64,000 nt of DNA, taken from positions 2,094,550-2,158,549 of the forward strand of contig NZ_CP090958.1 of the NCBI RefSeq assembly GCF_025787225.1, read 5' to 3'. Both the position numbers and the translations under genes were made by a program. The notes beneath the pieces were generated by a model. That model saw only the letters and a program-made list of their open reading frames with translations, was not told where the DNA came from and ran no database searches. Below, in pieces: positions 21,854 through 31,210 of this stretch (positions are counted from its first letter, which is position 1; each line of letters opens with the position of its first letter). The stretch is from Saxibacter everestensis. Its GTDB lineage: Bacteria; Actinomycetota; Actinomycetes; Actinomycetales; Brevibacteriaceae.

Positions 21854-22912
21854 CTAGGTGAGCCGAGCGCGCTCCCGCTGCATTGCGTCGTGCACCTCGC
21901 CCACGAGTTCCTCGAGCACGTCTTCCAGGAAGACCACGCCGTGCGTCGTGCCCTCGGCGTCCAGAACCCGGGCGACATGTGAGCCGCTGCGTTGCATTGT
22001 CGCCAGAGCGTCTTCCACCTCATCGGTGAGTGCGACATTGACCAGGGCCCTGAAGCGTTTTTCCGGCACCGGTTCACGGTGGGTGTACGCCTCGTCGTCG
22101 GCGTACAGCACATCCTTCAGGTGCAGATAGCCGACCAGGTCCCCGTCATCGTCCTCAAGCAGGAACCGGCTGAACCCGGTCTGCCCGACCAGGCGCTCGA
22201 CCTCTTCCGGCGTGCACCCCACGGCGATGGTGACCAGCTTGTCCTTGGTGACCATGACGTCGCCGGCGGAGTACTCGGAGAATTCCAGGGCGCCGGACAG
22301 CAGACCCATCTCGTCGGTGAGCTTTCCCTCTTTCATCGACTCGCTGACGATCGACTGGACTTCCTCGACGGTGAAGGTCGAGTTCACTTCATCCTTCGTG
22401 TCCACCCTGAACAGCTTCAGCAGGCCATTTGCCGCGGCGTTGAGTGGAACGATGACGAACCTGAAGACCCTGCCGATCATGACGAGCGGCGGTGCGAGCA
22501 GCAACGCCGCCCGATCCGAGACTGCGAGCGAAATGTTCTTCGGGATCATTTCACCGACCACAACGTGCAGATAGGTGACAATGACGAGTGCCAGCGCGAA
22601 TGCGATAACGTCAACGGCCGCTTCCGGGATGCCGAGCAGTGCCAGCGGGCCCTGGAACAGGTGGTGGATTGCCGGCTCCGAGACATTGAGGATCAGCAAC
22701 GAGCACACGGTGATCCCGAGTTGGCACACCGCGAGCATCAGCGAGACGTGCTCCATAGCCCACAATGTGGTCTTCGCGGCGCGCGACCCCGCCTTCGCCT
22801 GGGGTTCGATCTGGCTGCGGCGTGCGGCGACAACGGCGAACTCAGCAGCGACGAAAAACGCGTTCGCCGCGAGCAGGATCACCAGCCAGACAATGCCCAT
22901 GAAATCGCTCAC
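21854..22912 (-). CDS. CNNM/CorC-family membrane protein (hemolysin family)
   Basis: Second gene of a CNNM pair, 352 residues. The N-terminal DUF21 membrane domain (1-190) has AANAFFVAAEFAVVAARRS and the conserved GEMIPKNISLAVSDR. A CBS pair follows (about 200-330), with VMTKDKLVTIAVG. The CorC_HlyC transporter-associated domain found in longer members is absent. CNNM/CorC proteins move or sense Mg2+/Co2+. The ATG overlaps the upstream gene's stop by four bases, so the pair is translationally coupled. The order GuaB1-CNNM-CNNM matches Rv1843c-Rv1841c. Confidence 0.9.
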   Translation of the reverse strand: MSDFMGIVWLVILLAANAFFVAAEFAVVAARRSQIEPQAKAGSRAAKTTLWAMEHVSLMLAVCQLGITVCSLLILNVSEPAIHHLFQGPLALLGIPEAAVDVIAFALALVIVTYLHVVVGEMIPKNISLAVSDRAALLLAPPLVMIGRVFRFVIVPLNAAANGLLKLFRVDTKDEVNSTFTVEEVQSIVSESMKEGKLTDEMGLLSGALEFSEYSAGDVMVTKDKLVTIAVGCTPEEVERLVGQTGFSRFLLEDDDGDLVGYLHLKDVLYADDEAYTHREPVPEKRFRALVNVALTDEVEDALATMQRSGSHVARVLDAEGTTHGVVFLEDVLEELVGEVHDAMQRERARLT

Positions 22913-24375
22913 TTGTGCACCCTCCCCTCGATCGGCGGATCAGCATGCACGACGGCTGCCCTGATTTCGGCCACTGCCGCACCCGTATGGTCGTGGCCAG
23001 GTTGCCCGCGGTCGTGGCCAGGTTGCGCGCGATCGTGGCCGGGTTGCGCGTTCCGGTTAACAGTGTTGTCCGAGGCGCTGGCATTCCTGGCGGGCACGTA
23101 GCGGACCCGGTCGACTCGACGCCCGTGCATCCTTTCTACGACCAGGTGCCCGTGGTCCAGCTGGGCCACGTCACCGACCGCAGGCACACGGCCGAGGTGG
23201 GCCATCAGGAATCCACCGACCGTTTCGTAGGAGCTGTCATCCGGGATATGCGAGTCAAGCCGTGAGTTCGCCTCGTCCGGCCGGGTCAGACCGGGCAGTA
23301 TCCACGAACCATCCCGGGTTCGGCGCACAGTCGACCTGGCGCGGTCATGTTCGTCCGCGACCTCTCCGACGAGTTCCTCGACAACGTCCTCCAGGGTGAC
23401 TACACCTGCCGTGCCGCCGAACTCGTCGATGACGACCGCCATCTGCAGGCCGCGACCGCGCAGTTCGAGCAGCAGCGGATCGAGCCTAACTGTCTCCGGC
23501 AATTGCACTGCCTCGCTCATCAGGCCACCGGCGTAGGCGTCGTGCCGGTTCTCGTGCGGAACGGAAACCGCCTGCTTGACGTGCACGACGCCGACGATGT
23601 CGTCGCGAGACTCACCGATTACCGGAAAACGCGAATAACCGGTGCGCCGGGCGATGACCACGATCTCTGCCGCGGTGGTGTCCTTGTTGACGGTGGTGAT
23701 CCGGGTGCGAGGCGTCATCACATCCGCTGCCGTGCGCTGCGAAAACGCCAGCGACCTGGTCAGCAACACCGCGGTCTGCACATCCAGGGTGCCCGCCTCG
23801 GCCGAGCGCCGCACGAGAGCGACAAGTTCCTCCGGCGCCCGGCCGGAGGAGTTCTCTTCCTGCGGTTCCAGCCCCATGGCACGCAGCGCCCGGTTGGCGG
23901 TGCCGTTGAGCAAGGCGATCATCGGCCCGAAGACGAAACTGAAGCCCAGCTGGAATGGCGCGACGAAGCGGCCGGTGGCCAATGGCAGTGAAATAGCGAG
24001 GTTCTTGGGTACCAGTTCACCGATCAGCATCGAGAACAGCGTCGCCGCGAACATCGCGATGGACACGCCGACCGGCGCAATGGCCGCCTCGGGGACGTTA
24101 AGGGCAGCGAGCGGACCAGCCAGCAACTTAGCGAGCGACGGCTCCATCAGGTAGCCGGTCAACAGGGTGGTGAGGGTGATTCCCACCTGCGCGGCGGACA
24201 GCTGTGTTGAAAGCGACCGTACGCCCTTGAGTAGTTGCTTTGACCCGCGTTCAGACCGCTCGACGGACTCCTCGACTGTATGCCGGTCGAGGGTGATCAG
24301 GGCAAACTCCGCTGCCACGAACAGGCCTGTGCCCACCGTCAGGAGTAGGGCCAGGCCTAAAAGTAACCATTCCAT
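22909..24375 (-). CDS. CNNM/CorC-family membrane protein with C-terminal CorC_HlyC domain
   Basis: First gene of the pair, 488 residues. DUF21 domain 1-190 (FVAAEFALITLDRHTVEESV, GELVPKNLAISLPLATG), CBS pair about 210-340 (VMTPRTRITTV), and a CorC_HlyC domain ending near RRVDRVRYVPAR. The last about 60 residues contain a GHDRxQP heptad repeat encoded by a 21-bp tandem DNA repeat (22990-23052), probably disordered and His-rich. The likely role is divalent cation export or homeostasis. It is preceded by a structured leader. Confidence 0.9.
   Translation of the reverse strand: MEWLLLGLALLLTVGTGLFVAAEFALITLDRHTVEESVERSERGSKQLLKGVRSLSTQLSAAQVGITLTTLLTGYLMEPSLAKLLAGPLAALNVPEAAIAPVGVSIAMFAATLFSMLIGELVPKNLAISLPLATGRFVAPFQLGFSFVFGPMIALLNGTANRALRAMGLEPQEENSSGRAPEELVALVRRSAEAGTLDVQTAVLLTRSLAFSQRTAADVMTPRTRITTVNKDTTAAEIVVIARRTGYSRFPVIGESRDDIVGVVHVKQAVSVPHENRHDAYAGGLMSEAVQLPETVRLDPLLLELRGRGLQMAVVIDEFGGTAGVVTLEDVVEELVGEVADEHDRARSTVRRTRDGSWILPGLTRPDEANSRLDSHIPDDSSYETVGGFLMAHLGRVPAVGDVAQLDHGHLVVERMHGRRVDRVRYVPARNASASDNTVNRNAQPGHDRAQPGHDRGQPGHDHTGAAVAEIRAAVVHADPPIEGRVHK
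22990..23052. repeat. Three-copy 21-bp in-frame repeat in the CNNM gene's 3' region
   Basis: Units at 22990-23010, 23011-23031 and 23032-23052 contain TCGTGGCC(A/G)GGTTGC. They encode three GHDR-type heptads near the C terminus, adding several histidines. Confidence 0.88.
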
Positions 24376-24591: not shown

Positions 24592-26148
<1,557 letters not shown>

Positions 26149-26207
26149 CTAGTCTTGACCATGAGTCCATAACAAGCTTGCGACGATGGAAGAGGGCGAT
26201 TTTCGCC

Positions 26208-29200
26208 GTGTCCGATCAAACGGTCCACCCCGGCATGGGTGACTTCGGTGCCAATGAGTGGCTCGTAGACGAAATGTACGAGCGGTTCAAAGAAGACAAA
26301 AACTCGGTTGACGAGGCCTGGTGGGAGTTCTTCGAGGACTACACTCCCGAGGAATCAGCCACGAACGGGACGCCGGATCGGAGCAGCGGTTCCACGGCGA
26401 AGCCCGTGACTGCCGAGACCGCGGCGAAGGCCGAAGCCAAGCCTGAGGCCAAGCCGGCCGCGAAGACCGAAGTCAAGCCTGAGACCAAGCCGGCCGCGCC
26501 GAAGGCTGAGGAGAAGCCGAAGGCAGAGACCGAAGCCAAGCCCGCAGAGGCCAAGCCGGCCGCGAGGACCGACGCCAAGCCCGCAGCGGCCAAGCCGGCC
26601 AAGGCAGAAGCTGCCGACGAGGCACCGGACAAGATCACTCCGCTTCGCGGGCCGGCCAAGTTGCTGGCGAGCAACATGGACTCCAGCCTTGAGGTTCCAA
26701 CAGCCACCAGCGTTCGCGCTGTGCCCGCAAAGCTGCTGATCGACAACCGGATCGTGATCAATAGCCATCTGCGTCGTTCACAGGGCGGCAAGGTCTCATT
26801 CACCCACCTGATCGGGTTCGCCGTGATCAGGGCGCTGAGCAAGTTCCCTTCGCAGAACGTGTACTACGACATCATCGATGGCAAGCCCAGCATGGTGGCA
26901 CCGGCACACGTGAATTTCGGTCTCGCGATCGACATCCCGAAGAAGGACGGCACCCGCGCCCTCCTGGTCCCCAATGTGAAGAAGGCCGAGGAACTGGATT
27001 TCGCCCAGTTCTGGGGAGCCTACGAGGACCTGGTCAAGAAGGCGCGTAACGGACAGCTGACCGCGGGCGACTTCGCCGGCACCACTGTGTCGCTGACCAA
27101 CCCCGGCGGCATCGGCACCGTGCACTCGGTGCCGCGCCTCACCAAGAAGCAAGGCTGCATCGTCGGCGTCGGCGCACTCGACTACCCCGCCGAGTTCCAG
27201 GGCGCCAGCCTCGAAACCGTCACCCGGCTCGGCATCTCCAAGGTGCTCACACTTACCTCGACCTACGACCACCGGGTGATCCAGGGTGCCGGTTCGGGTG
27301 AGTTCCTGCGCCTCGTGCACGAGTTCCTGCTCGGCGGCGACGGCTTCTACGACGAGATCTTCCGCTCGCTCCGGCTGCCGTACGAACCAGTGCGCTGGGT
27401 CAACGACATTCACGTCGACCCCGAAGATGAGATCAACAAGACCGCGCGGGTCCAGGAACTCATCGACTCCTACCGCACCCGCGGGCACCTGATGGCGGAC
27501 ACCGATCCACTGGAGTACCGGCAGCGGCGCCATCCCGACCTCGACGTGCAGACGCACGGGCTCACCCTCTGGGACCTCGACCGGGAATTCCCCACCGGTG
27601 GATTCGCAAATCAGCCTCAGATGTCGCTGCGCAAGATCCTCGGCGTGCTGCGCGATTCGTACTGCCGGACCACCGGCATCGAGTACATGCATATCTCAGA
27701 TCCGGTGCAACGCAAGTGGTTCCAGAACCGGGTCGAGAAGCCGTTCGACAAGCCCAGCCGCGACGAGCAGATGCATATTCTCGGCCGGCTCAACGCCGCG
27801 GAGGCGTTTGAGACGTTCCTGCAGACCAAGTACGTCGGCCAGAAGCGTTTCAGCCTGGAAGGCGGCGAATCCACGATCGCGCTGCTCGACCAGGTGTTGG
27901 CCAACGCCGCGGACGCAGGCCTCCCCGAGGTCACCATCGGAATGGCGCACCGCGGCCGGCTGAATGTGCTTGCCAATATCGCCGGCAAGTCATACGGCCA
28001 GATCTTCCGCGAATTCGAAGGCACCCAGGATCCGCGCAGCGTCCAGGGTTCCGGCGATGTGAAGTACCACCTGGGCACCGAGGGTTCCTACACCTCTGCG
28101 GCCGGCAACTCGATGAAGGTTTACGTTGCGGCCAACCCATCGCACCTTGAGACCGTCGATCCTGTGCTCGAAGGCATTGCCCGGGCCAAGCAGGACCGTA
28201 TCGACCTGGGTGGCGCGGCCTTCCCTGTGCTGCCAGTGCTGGTGCACGGCGATGCCGCATTCGCCGGCCAGGGTGTCGTCACCGAGACGTTGAACCTCTC
28301 AGAGCTTCGCGGCTACCGGACCGGTGGCACGATCCATGTCGTGATCAACAACCAGGTAGGTTTCACCACCAGCCCGAGCTCCTCGCGCTCCTCGTTCTAC
28401 TCCACAGATGCCGCGAAGATCATCAATGCGCCGATCATCCACGTGAACGGCGACGACCCGGAGGCTGTCGTCCGTGCCGCGCGGCTCGCCTTCGAGTACC
28501 GCCAGGAATTCGCCAAGGACGTTGTCATCGATCTGGTCTGCTACCGTCGGCGCGGCCATAACGAGGGCGACGACCCATCGATGACCCAACCGATGATGTA
28601 CGAGCTGATCGACGCCAAGCGCAGTGTCCGCAAGCTGTACACCCGTGCGTTGATCGGCCGAGGCGATATCAGCGAGGCCGAGGCCGAAGAGGCGCTCAAG
28701 GACTACCAGGCCAGGCTTGAGGCAGCATTCGCCGAAACACACGATGCTCAGACATCTTCGGTGCCGATCGTCAGCGATGACGATGCTCCGGTATCCGGAC
28801 TGGAACGCCCCGAGGCCCAGCGCGGCGAAGACGACCAGCCACAGTCAGTGGAAACTGCCGTCGACAGTTCGGTTATCGAGCGCATCGGCAAGGCACATGT
28901 CAGCCCTCCGGAGGGCTTCACGGTGCACAAGAAGCTGAAGTCACTGCTGGAAAAGCGCGACCTGATGTCGCGTCAGGGTTCGATCGACTGGGGATACGGC
29001 GAGTTGCTTGCTTTCGGCTCGCTTTTGGTCGAAGGCGTTCCGGTCCGGCTAACCGGCCAGGACTCACGTCGTGGCACGTTCGTGCAGCGCCACTCGGTGC
29101 TGATCGATCACGGGAACGGCAACGAGTGGACGCCGCTATCGAACCTCTCCGACGACCAGGCCCGGTTCTGGGTCTACGACTCGTCGCTGTCGGAGTACGC

Positions 29201-30002
29201 CGCCATGGGCTTCGAATACGGATACTCGGTGGAACGTCCCGACGCGCTCGTACTGTGGGAGGCCCAGTTCGGTGATTTCGGTCCGGGCGCCCAGTCGATC
29301 ATCGACGAGTTCATTTCCTCTGCGGAGCAGAAGTGGCAACAGAACTCGTCGGTTGTCCTGCTGCTCCCGCACGGGTACGAGGGCCAGGGCCCGGATCATT
29401 CATCGGCCCGGATCGAGCGTTACCTGCAACTGTGCGCCGAGAACAACATGACAGTCGCCCAGCCGTCGACGCCGGCATCGCACTTCCATCTGCTGCGCCG
29501 GCAGGCATACTCCCGGCCGCGCCGCCCGCTGATCGTCTTCACGCCGAAGTGGATGCTGCGCCTGAAGGCGGCGTCCTCGCCGGTGGAGGACTTCACGACC
29601 GGTGGATTCCAGCCCGTCATCCCGGACACCAGCGTTGAGCCTCAGAACGTCGATCGGGTCCTCCTGGTCTCCGGAAAGCTCTACTGGCAGCTGTTGGAGG
29701 CCCGTGAGAAGGCTGGCGATACCAGGACGGCGCTGGTCAGGTTCGAGCAGCTGTATCCGTTGTGCGGGGAATCGATCGCCAAGGCGCTCGACGTTTACGG
29801 GGACGCGGAACTGGTCTGGGTGCAGGACGAGCCGGAGAACCAGGGGCCGTGGCCATCGATCGCGCTCGGCCTGCCGAAGTACCTTGGCGGGCGCAGTCTG
29901 CGCGTGGTGTCGCGGCGTGCTTCGGCCTCACCGGCGACCGGACTGAAGAAGGTCCACGACATGGAGCAGGCCGCCTTGATCAAAACTGCTTTCGAGCGTT
30001 AA
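26208..30002 (+). CDS. kgd: Multifunctional 2-oxoglutarate metabolism enzyme (2-oxoglutarate dehydrogenase E1 fused to E2 domain)
   Basis: TCA-cycle enzyme that decarboxylates 2-oxoglutarate with ThDP and joins the ODH complex. From the GTG at 26208 it has 1264 residues. The N-terminal GANEWLVDEMYERF helix is followed by a Lys/Pro/Ala/Glu linker (about 45-145). Next come an E2-type acyltransferase domain (about 150-400, with TYDHRVIQGAGSGEFL) and the E1 domain, with HRGRLNVLANI, GDAAFAGQGVV and RRRGHNEGDDPS for ThDP/Mg binding. This is the actinobacterial OdhA/Kgd fusion. A TTG 30 bases upstream is an alternative start; AGAGGG lies 11 bases before the GTG. Confidence 0.96.
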   Translation: MSDQTVHPGMGDFGANEWLVDEMYERFKEDKNSVDEAWWEFFEDYTPEESATNGTPDRSSGSTAKPVTAETAAKAEAKPEAKPAAKTEVKPETKPAAPKAEEKPKAETEAKPAEAKPAARTDAKPAAAKPAKAEAADEAPDKITPLRGPAKLLASNMDSSLEVPTATSVRAVPAKLLIDNRIVINSHLRRSQGGKVSFTHLIGFAVIRALSKFPSQNVYYDIIDGKPSMVAPAHVNFGLAIDIPKKDGTRALLVPNVKKAEELDFAQFWGAYEDLVKKARNGQLTAGDFAGTTVSLTNPGGIGTVHSVPRLTKKQGCIVGVGALDYPAEFQGASLETVTRLGISKVLTLTSTYDHRVIQGAGSGEFLRLVHEFLLGGDGFYDEIFRSLRLPYEPVRWVNDIHVDPEDEINKTARVQELIDSYRTRGHLMADTDPLEYRQRRHPDLDVQTHGLTLWDLDREFPTGGFANQPQMSLRKILGVLRDSYCRTTGIEYMHISDPVQRKWFQNRVEKPFDKPSRDEQMHILGRLNAAEAFETFLQTKYVGQKRFSLEGGESTIALLDQVLANAADAGLPEVTIGMAHRGRLNVLANIAGKSYGQIFREFEGTQDPRSVQGSGDVKYHLGTEGSYTSAAGNSMKVYVAANPSHLETVDPVLEGIARAKQDRIDLGGAAFPVLPVLVHGDAAFAGQGVVTETLNLSELRGYRTGGTIHVVINNQVGFTTSPSSSRSSFYSTDAAKIINAPIIHVNGDDPEAVVRAARLAFEYRQEFAKDVVIDLVCYRRRGHNEGDDPSMTQPMMYELIDAKRSVRKLYTRALIGRGDISEAEAEEALKDYQARLEAAFAETHDAQTSSVPIVSDDDAPVSGLERPEAQRGEDDQPQSVETAVDSSVIERIGKAHVSPPEGFTVHKKLKSLLEKRDLMSRQGSIDWGYGELLAFGSLLVEGVPVRLTGQDSRRGTFVQRHSVLIDHGNGNEWTPLSNLSDDQARFWVYDSSLSEYAAMGFEYGYSVERPDALVLWEAQFGDFGPGAQSIIDEFISSAEQKWQQNSSVVLLLPHGYEGQGPDHSSARIERYLQLCAENNMTVAQPSTPASHFHLLRRQAYSRPRRPLIVFTPKWMLRLKAASSPVEDFTTGGFQPVIPDTSVEPQNVDRVLLVSGKLYWQLLEAREKAGDTRTALVRFEQLYPLCGESIAKALDVYGDAELVWVQDEPENQGPWPSIALGLPKYLGGRSLRVVSRRASASPATGLKKVHDMEQAALIKTAFER

Positions 30003-30008
30003 ACCTCG

Positions 30009-30626
30009 ATGAGCAGCACAGGACGTTCAACAGGAATTCTTAACGTAGTGGCCGTCGGCGACGAACTTGTCGCCGGGCTCGGCGATGCCCGCGGCCAGGG
30101 CTGGGTAGGTCGCGTCGCCGCTCGCACACTGAGCGAGGGGCACAACCTACGGATGTTCGGACTCGGCGTGCCGAGCGAGGGCACCGCGGCGCTGTCGTCC
30201 CGCTGGTACGGCGAGGCCTCGCGGCGCTATGCCACGAGCGCTGACAACCGGCTGATCATCGGGCTGGGCTGCGCTGATCTCGGCGAGGGTCTTTCACTCG
30301 CCCGGTCTCGGCTCAACCTGGCGAATCTGCTGGACGAGGCGCTGTCCAAAGAGGTCTCCACCTTCGTTGTTGGCCCCACTCCGACGGTTCACGACGAGGC
30401 GAATCGGCGGATCCAGGAACTGTCCGCCGGCTTCGCCGATGTGGCAAGCAGGCGCGGCGTCAACTACGTGGACACGTTCACCCCGCTGCTGAACCACGAG
30501 CAGTGGCGCACGGATGTCGGCGCGAGCGATATCGGGTTGCCCGCGCAGGCCGGCTACGGTCTGCTGGCCTGGCTGGTGCTGAACCGCGGCTGGTACAGCT
30601 GGCTCGGCCTGCCCTCGCCGGCGTAG
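30009..30626 (+). CDS. SGNH/GDSL-hydrolase-fold protein lacking catalytic residues
   Basis: A 205-residue protein with an SGNH-like layout: block I reads VAVGDELVAGLGD, where the catalytic Ser of GDSL is Glu. A block III-like segment reads LGCADLGEG instead of GxND. The C-terminal DxxH block appears as SDIGLPAQAGYG, without His. I infer that it is not an esterase and may bind a ligand. It starts seven bases after the kgd stop, so it is cotranscribed and possibly linked to central metabolism. No signal peptide or membrane helix is seen. Confidence 0.75.
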   Translation: MSSTGRSTGILNVVAVGDELVAGLGDARGQGWVGRVAARTLSEGHNLRMFGLGVPSEGTAALSSRWYGEASRRYATSADNRLIIGLGCADLGEGLSLARSRLNLANLLDEALSKEVSTFVVGPTPTVHDEANRRIQELSAGFADVASRRGVNYVDTFTPLLNHEQWRTDVGASDIGLPAQAGYGLLAWLVLNRGWYSWLGLPSPA

Positions 30627-30707
30627 CACCGGCGGAGACCGGCGGGCGGCTCGCGCAGGAGCACCCGGCTATGGCACGATACGACAGGGAAAACAAAGGA
30701 GAAATAT

Positions 30708-30782
30708 ATGAGTAAGCGAGCACGCAAGCGCCGCGCCCGTAAGGGCGGCGCCGCAAACCACGGCAAGAAGCCAAACACTTAA
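30708..30782 (+). CDS. Ribosomal protein bL37 (24-residue actinobacterial protein)
   Basis: An ORF of 24 codons preceded by a strong AAAGGAG site with six-base spacing. The product is extremely basic: it begins MSKRARKRRARKGG, then AANHGKKPNT. This Lys/Arg block followed by the NHGKxPN tail matches bL37, a tiny 50S protein known from mycobacterial ribosomes and often missed in annotation. A perfect 14-bp terminator hairpin begins six bases after the stop, confirming a discrete transcription unit. Confidence 0.88.
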   Translation: MSKRARKRRARKGGAANHGKKPNT

Positions 30783-30787
30783 AGAGC

Positions 30788-30826
30788 AATGCCCGGGTCG
30801 CATCAAGCGACCCGGGCATTACTGTT
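30788..30826 (+). terminator. Intrinsic terminator after bL37
   Basis: A perfect 14-bp stem, 30788-30801 with 30807-30820, and 5-base loop ATCAA, followed by ACTGTTT. The U-tract is weak but the stem is very stable. Confidence 0.88.
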
Positions 30827-30860
30827 TCCGGCACTACCGTACTGTTTCCGGCACTGCTGT
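30821..30860. repeat. Two-copy 20-bp tandem repeat after the bL37 terminator
   Basis: 30821-30840 and 30841-30860 begin identically (ACTGTTTCCGGCACT) and differ at only a few later bases. The repeat lies in the gap between the convergent bL37 and rsrA genes. Confidence 0.85.
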
Positions 30861-30907
30861 TCCGACGCAGAAGCAGAAGCATCCAGCGATTCCGGGTGCT
30901 TGAATGC

Positions 30908-31210
30908 TTAGAGTCGACCGGTATCCGAGGTTTCGATCACAATGCGCTCCCGGATCCGTTCCCGAAGGCTGGCGGGGGCGCTTTCGCTGCACGAGCGCCT
31001 GACCAGATCCTTGAGCATCGACTCGATGCTCAGCTCCGACTCGCATGGCGAGCACTCCTGCAGGTGCGCCTTGATTTCGGCGATCTCCGCCTGGCCAAGC
31101 TCACCATCAAGGTAATCGTAGAGCCTGCGCAGATTCTGCCGCCGGCTCTCCTCGCAACATCCCTTGGACGCTGGTGGCGCCTCTTCCGATAAACGTTCTT
31201 CCGTGCTCAC
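30908..31210 (-). CDS. rsrA: Anti-sigma factor RsrA (mycothiol system, zinc-binding)
   Basis: ZAS-family redox-sensitive anti-sigma factor, 100 residues. It binds SigR in the reduced, zinc-loaded state and releases it when disulfides form under thiol stress. The zinc motif HLQECSPCE (H-x3-C-x2-C) lies near 48-56; an upstream Cys pair (KGCCEE) and a C-terminal Cys are present. The GTG start overlaps the sigR TGA stop (GTGA), so production is coupled to SigR, and AGGTGAGGAA supplies the ribosome site. The partner gene lies immediately upstream. Confidence 0.93.

Follow-up and report, generated by a model that had tools for sequence, protein, structure and literature searches.

Clade-wide loss of catalytic residues in a probable SGNH-fold pseudoenzyme encoded next to kgd in an actinobacterial order

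A gene located directly downstream of kgd very probably encodes, on the basis of sequence comparisons, a maintained SGNH-fold pseudoenzyme, since its dN/dS values are low despite the loss of catalytic residues. The gene occupies positions 30009..30626 on the forward strand of the window (the whole stretch of 64,000 nucleotides analysed), starts with ATG, and encodes a protein of 205 amino acids that is without the Ser, Asn, and His of the catalytic set. Its homologues appear to hold an unusually full record of catalytic residue loss in a pseudoenzyme maintained across an order. The combined reading, in which such a pseudoenzyme has an accessory partner in the PDH-ODH machinery, is one that we moderately favor; the placement of the partner within that machinery, taken by itself, is tentative.

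The gene next to kgd and the fold of its product

The kgd gene (26178..30002, forward strand; NF008907 match of 2056.5 bits) ends six bases before the ATG of the SGNH-fold open reading frame (ORF) at 30009. A gene for a CBS-domain membrane protein (22909-24375) is found upstream of kgd, and the gene for the 24-residue ribosomal protein bL37 (30708..30782, forward strand; NF047428, 45.7 bits) follows downstream, as a neighbor only and outside the claim made here. A scan for promoters and terminators over 25900-31000 returned signals that were not above the level of shuffled sequence. In the window, the SGNH gene may well be co-transcribed with kgd.

To assess the fold, the window protein was compared with profile and structure libraries. 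It matched PF13472 (Lipase_GDSL_2) with 60 bits against a cut-off of 32.9, and the closest solved structure by sequence in a phmmer search of the PDB was 1vjg (Nostoc alr1529; E 6.7e-16). An AlphaFold2 model, for which the window protein was combined with 33 Micrococcaceae-type loci, had a pLDDT of 83.3 and a pTM of 0.83, and its best PDB match was 1z8h, again Nostoc alr1529 (VIA-align Z 25.7 over 191 residues, rmsd 2.0). By both profile and fold match, the window protein is a true SGNH/GDSL fold. The sole NCBIfam match of the protein was to trpA and lay below the cut-off. The libraries searched match these proteins only to the GDSL-like lipase/acylhydrolase family, a name that would be misleading for the clade.

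Inspection of the catalytic blocks showed that the protein has lost three of the residues that give SGNH its four letters. Glu19 (codon GAA, 30063-30065) replaces the catalytic Ser in block I (VGDEL), and Ala89 (GCT, 30273..30275) replaces the oxyanion-hole Asn in block III (GCAD). In the block V loop DIGL (30528..30539, within SDIGLP), Asp174 is kept and Leu177 (TTG, 30537-30539) takes the place of the catalytic His; all these codons are on the forward strand. Only the oxyanion Gly of block II is present, as G53. The first-pass annotation of this DNA had thus correctly recognized an SGNH-fold gene right after kgd, the change of Ser to Glu in GDEL, and a DxxH block without His; it had overlooked the loss of the oxyanion Asn, so that one letter more is missing than was noted.

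Spread of the gene and order of residue loss

A match to the gene was detected in 55 of 59 relatives and in 201 of the 248 genomes of the order; class-wide, 44 of 296 genomes had a match, with members of the order counted in. A scan of genome contigs retrieved 68 named loci, nearly all of them, judged by title, from Micrococcaceae (f6, a code linked to this family by the named Arthrobacter loci that the tree contains). One Micrococcaceae-like copy, L052, lies on a contig titled Acidobacteria MAG, which is probably a binning error.

Over 98 orthologous loci, position 19 was Glu in 75, Pro in 15, Gln in 3, Asp in 2, and Arg and Ala in 1 each, and one row did not cover it. Because 97 loci cover the position and none has Ser, the change is not due to chance or to a sequencing slip, which are also ruled out by the clade-wide pattern and by dN/dS. 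The conservation of GDEL, proposed earlier as a check, holds for Micrococcaceae, where Glu was observed in 66 of 67 loci, but not for g2, a genus of the window's own family, in which Pro is the commonest residue (Pro 15, Glu 5, Gln 2, and Arg 1 among 23 loci). GDEL is therefore a habit of the clade that is only partly conserved and not a fixed motif.

The history of these losses was analyzed on a tree of 109 representatives. For much of the order, these include one or two members of each genus; the window's family and Micrococcaceae contribute several, f38 contributes 8 of its 20 loci, and the set is completed by 10 unlinked homologues. Rows with fewer than 150 residues after HMM alignment were left out, and the trait columns were masked in the main tree and unmasked in an earlier quick tree. 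In the masked tree, the 76 Ser-less rows form one clade (support 100/97), which is nested among kgd-linked homologues of families f5, f17, and f38 that retain Ser and His. The fewest changes required on this tree were 2 for Ser, 9 for His, and 8 for Asn (2, 7, and 8 on the unmasked tree), and the catalytic His is retained in 32 of the 76 Ser-less rows. These change counts and the His still present indicate a single loss of Ser where the clade begins, followed by later and repeated losses of His. The initial proposal that both residues disappeared together is therefore incorrect as history.

The remaining residues of the set are scarce in the Ser-less clade. The block III Asn was found in 1 of the 76 rows and the oxyanion Gly in 22; no row has at least three of S, G, N, and H, and 36 have none of the four. 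Position 19 is occupied by E, D, A, Q, R, or P. All four residues are present in 10 of 10 unlinked homologues, 9 of 15 rows from f5 and f17, and 3 of 8 from f38. The same operon position thus provides a natural series from all four residues, through loss of Ser and loss of Ser and His, to loss of all, which lets the order of events in the evolution from enzyme to pseudoenzyme be tested.

Further observations concern individual lineages. Within f17, most members of which bear Ser and His, L190 has undergone a separate change of Ser to Glu together with loss of His (GDEY, DGLP). The Ser-bearing L106, L191, L194, and L195 of f17 and L144 of f5 have GAS or GSS for GDS, so that in these the Asp beside the nucleophile changes first. 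Four of the ten unlinked homologues are extra copies with all four residues in G399 (L217, L223), G406 (L218), and G444 (L219), where they coexist with the Ser-less gene of the kgd-linked type in the same genomes.

Linkage to kgd and its limits

In the flanking sequence fetched for 72 representatives, 66 had kgd upstream and in the same orientation, 58 of them within 500 nt. Three of the six misses (G419, G512, G502) also have a kgd on the same strand, at a distance of approximately 4.5-10 kb. Downstream neighbors are much looser, with bL37 in 26 and rsrA in 18 of the 72, about 1.5 kb downstream having been examined for most. The operon link of the SGNH gene with kgd is real and old.

In 21 of the 72 representatives, a gene for a DUF6104 protein (PF19599) separates kgd from the SGNH gene, and a DUF6104 match was obtained in 20 of 20 f38 loci. 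A search of 13 genomes found it in 4 (G058, G037, G052, G188); it was not found in the window's genome, G002, G001, G041, G043, G048, and G504, nor in G056 and G039, both of which are without the SGNH gene. From its position between the two genes in 21 of 72 representatives, its presence in all f38 loci, and its detection in 4 of the 13 genomes, the ancestral gene set was probably kgd-DUF6104-SGNH. Where the gap between kgd and the SGNH gene is long, it contains varied ORFs in some genera and DUF6104 in others. The DUF6104 gene is single-copy and encodes 58 amino acids (L186 of f15, L205/G058:C1:280541-280714, and the 20 f38 loci). Lineages with DUF6104 in this intermediate position keep His, and the gene is missing in the window's genome and in others with few catalytic residues. 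Among open-licence PMC papers, none was found under the name DUF6104.

We compared the lists of genomes with a gene match and with a kgd match across the 248 genomes of the order, in which 20 of the 47 gene-less genomes were named directly and the rest were obtained by subtraction from the kgd list. Among the 201 gene-bearing genomes, a kgd match was missing altogether in G440 and was limited to the E2 domain in G456 and G504. The 47 gene-less genomes include 28 with kgd (17 of f19 and 11 of f20) and 19 without (18 of f4 and the incomplete G370); the SGNH gene is absent in f19 and in part of f20. Two lineages, one represented by G504 and G540 and the other by G456, lost kgd and kept the SGNH gene. 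In the genus of G504, the SGNH gene is present in 9 of 9 genomes and a full kgd in 7 of 9. Between the G504 and G540 genes, the synonymous changes number 95.6 and the non-synonymous ones 29.4, and their dN/dS of 0.046, read as a sign of constraint only, is similar to the constraint in kgd-bearing congeners.

The kgd-less keepers G504 and G540 (L213, L226, L235) and G456 (L215, L227) have small genomes. Their SGNH gene lies beside a sigma-factor gene (L226) or a CBS-domain membrane protein gene (L227), within the same neighborhood. In G456 it adjoins a homologue of the window's CBS-domain membrane protein, a likeness judged by eye, and the arrangement looks as if the stretch containing kgd had been cut out.

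These data bear on the first-pass suggestion that the gene is coupled to 2-oxoglutarate metabolism, and on the reading that its product binds Kgd and modulates 2-oxoglutarate dehydrogenase. The genomic coupling stands, and the six-base gap, the frequent position of kgd upstream, and the looser downstream neighbors all favor a Kgd-specific regulator. In addition, the sole exceptions at E57 and at Q180 among the 76 Ser-less rows are the two kgd-less rows, which is a small hint toward a link with Kgd; however, this hint consists of two rows, one of which belongs to a fast family. Dependence on Kgd is not supported as proposed, as the gene is kept under constraint in genomes without kgd and 28 kgd-bearing genomes do without the gene. 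A regulator specific for Kgd is thus unlikely. The sequence data are best read as pointing to a binding role, and the case for Kgd as the sole partner is weakened.

The distribution of the E2 acyltransferase gene gives a weak indication that the dehydrogenase machinery as a whole is involved. This gene is kept in G504, G540, and G456, and all 9 of the f4 genomes tested are without both E2 and the SGNH gene, although this double absence concerns a single family and may reflect one event. A counter-example is G440, a fragmented genome in which the SGNH gene is present and no match to kgd or to E2 was obtained.

Constraint on the remaining protein and comparison with known systems

Median dN/dS values, obtained by a simple Nei-Gojobori method at high dS and serving to show constraint only, were 0.125 for Ser-less Micrococcaceae (683 pairs, dS 0.1-1.2), 0.223 for Ser-less g2 (168 pairs), 0.257 for the Ser/His-intact f38 (183 pairs), and 0.426 for f17 (78 pairs, dS up to 2.5). 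At least 93% identity across the 76 Ser-less rows was observed at 51 positions. The residues R101, L102, A105, D109, R148, P159, H163, W188, and H192, the last of which is found in most members and is Asn in the window protein, are common to members of f5 and f17 and not to f38 or the unlinked homologues. As the f5 and f17 members have the same residues, this set was fixed across the order before the loss of Ser. By comparison, fixation of Glu57 (GAG, 30177..30179, forward strand) is confined to the Ser-less clade, where it is present in 75 of 76 rows. His163 (CAC, 30495..30497, forward strand) is present in 91 of 91 rows of the order, whether the catalytic residues are present or absent, and is the only invariant His of the Ser-less clade (76 of 76).

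Such conserved residues could form a rebuilt site with another chemistry, for example, H163 with E57, D90, or T59, and D90 is indeed fixed and positions 40, 59, and 96 stay Ser or Thr in the Ser-less clade. However, most of these residues are ancestral or are shared with members in which Ser and His are intact, three key catalytic residues are lost, and no position is conserved as Ser, Thr, or Cys in as many as 93% of the 76 rows. Glu19 as a new nucleophile is ruled out by the variation at position 19, which leaves the clade without a common nucleophile there, and no alternative conserved Ser/His pair was found at 93%. We consider a new enzyme quite improbable. The idea that catalysis is gone because the gene itself is on its way out draws on the stepwise residue loss, the absence from f19 and part of f20, and the split copy in G434, and can be dismissed as highly improbable given the low dN/dS, the 51 strongly conserved positions, the retention after the loss of kgd, and frames that are open in nearly all listed copies.

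Disrupted copies, which had been looked for in relatives, are rare: the G434 gene runs in two overlapping frames, and L097 is a broken match. A TGA within f17 copies was a normal C-terminal stop, not a disruption, in the four copies inspected. With residues lost clade-wide, no replacement pair of Ser, Thr, or Cys with His that would restore a triad, and purifying selection, the initial proposal of a pseudoenzyme is supported.

The tree and the residue patterns show that the protein stems from a catalytically equipped SGNH homologue that was located beside kgd already, probably with the DUF6104 gene between them. The nucleophile Ser disappeared a single time at the root of the large clade, and the oxyanion Asn, the oxyanion Gly, and the catalytic His eroded independently or later, while the remaining protein has stayed under purifying selection. 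The conserved set from R101 to H192 may serve non-hydrolytic binding; such a function would have come first, would have made catalysis dispensable, and the chemistry would then have been dropped. With less certainty, the protein might act in the cytosol as an accessory to the hybrid PDH-ODH machinery, the 2-oxoacid dehydrogenase system of actinobacteria, rather than as a partner of Kgd alone. The complete scenario, in which an SGNH hydrolase was recruited to a kgd-DUF6104 operon as an enzyme, acquired a surface for binding, and only afterwards gave up catalysis to become an unrecognized, order-wide PDH-ODH accessory, is speculative. Should the PDH-ODH machinery prove to be the partner, an unknown component would be added to a much-studied node of actinobacterial metabolism. 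Among open-licence PMC papers, we found none that joins SGNH with 2-oxoglutarate dehydrogenase in actinobacteria; a search combining GDSL, odhA, and Corynebacterium returned nothing on topic as judged from the title, and GDSL is unmentioned in the kgd literature among the matches listed.

The closest structural relative, Nostoc alr1529 (1vjg, 1z8h), resembles the window protein in its fold over 191 residues, the GDxxxxGWxxR motif, GPxP, and the surroundings of block V, but retains GDSF and DGxHP, whereas the window protein is without Ser, Asn, and His. In an SGNH lipase of Streptomyces rimosus, the replacement of Ser, Asn, or His by Ala in each case gave an inactive enzyme, according to the available text of the study (PMC10779480). 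Dead GDSL enzymes are reported for plants, with 3 of 116 in Arabidopsis in the accessible part of that work (PMC4757993); they likewise keep an SGNH-type fold and have lost catalytic residues, and another cellular role was proposed for one of them there. The plant proteins form a distant branch and are likened at the superfamily level, whereas the clade described here is bacterial, operon-linked, and characterized by graded losses.

As far as the available sections of two further papers go, the actinobacterial OdhA/Kgd is regulated by the FHA protein OdhI/GarA (PMC10415282, PMC10581250), and Corynebacterium OdhA is part of a hybrid PDH-ODH complex (PMC10581250). If the reading of a Kgd partner were right, the SGNH protein would resemble OdhI/GarA in assisting the same dehydrogenase without being an enzyme itself. 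OdhI/GarA differs in fold, and in the sections available the binding of OdhI was shown by experiment, whereas the SGNH protein is known here from its sequence.
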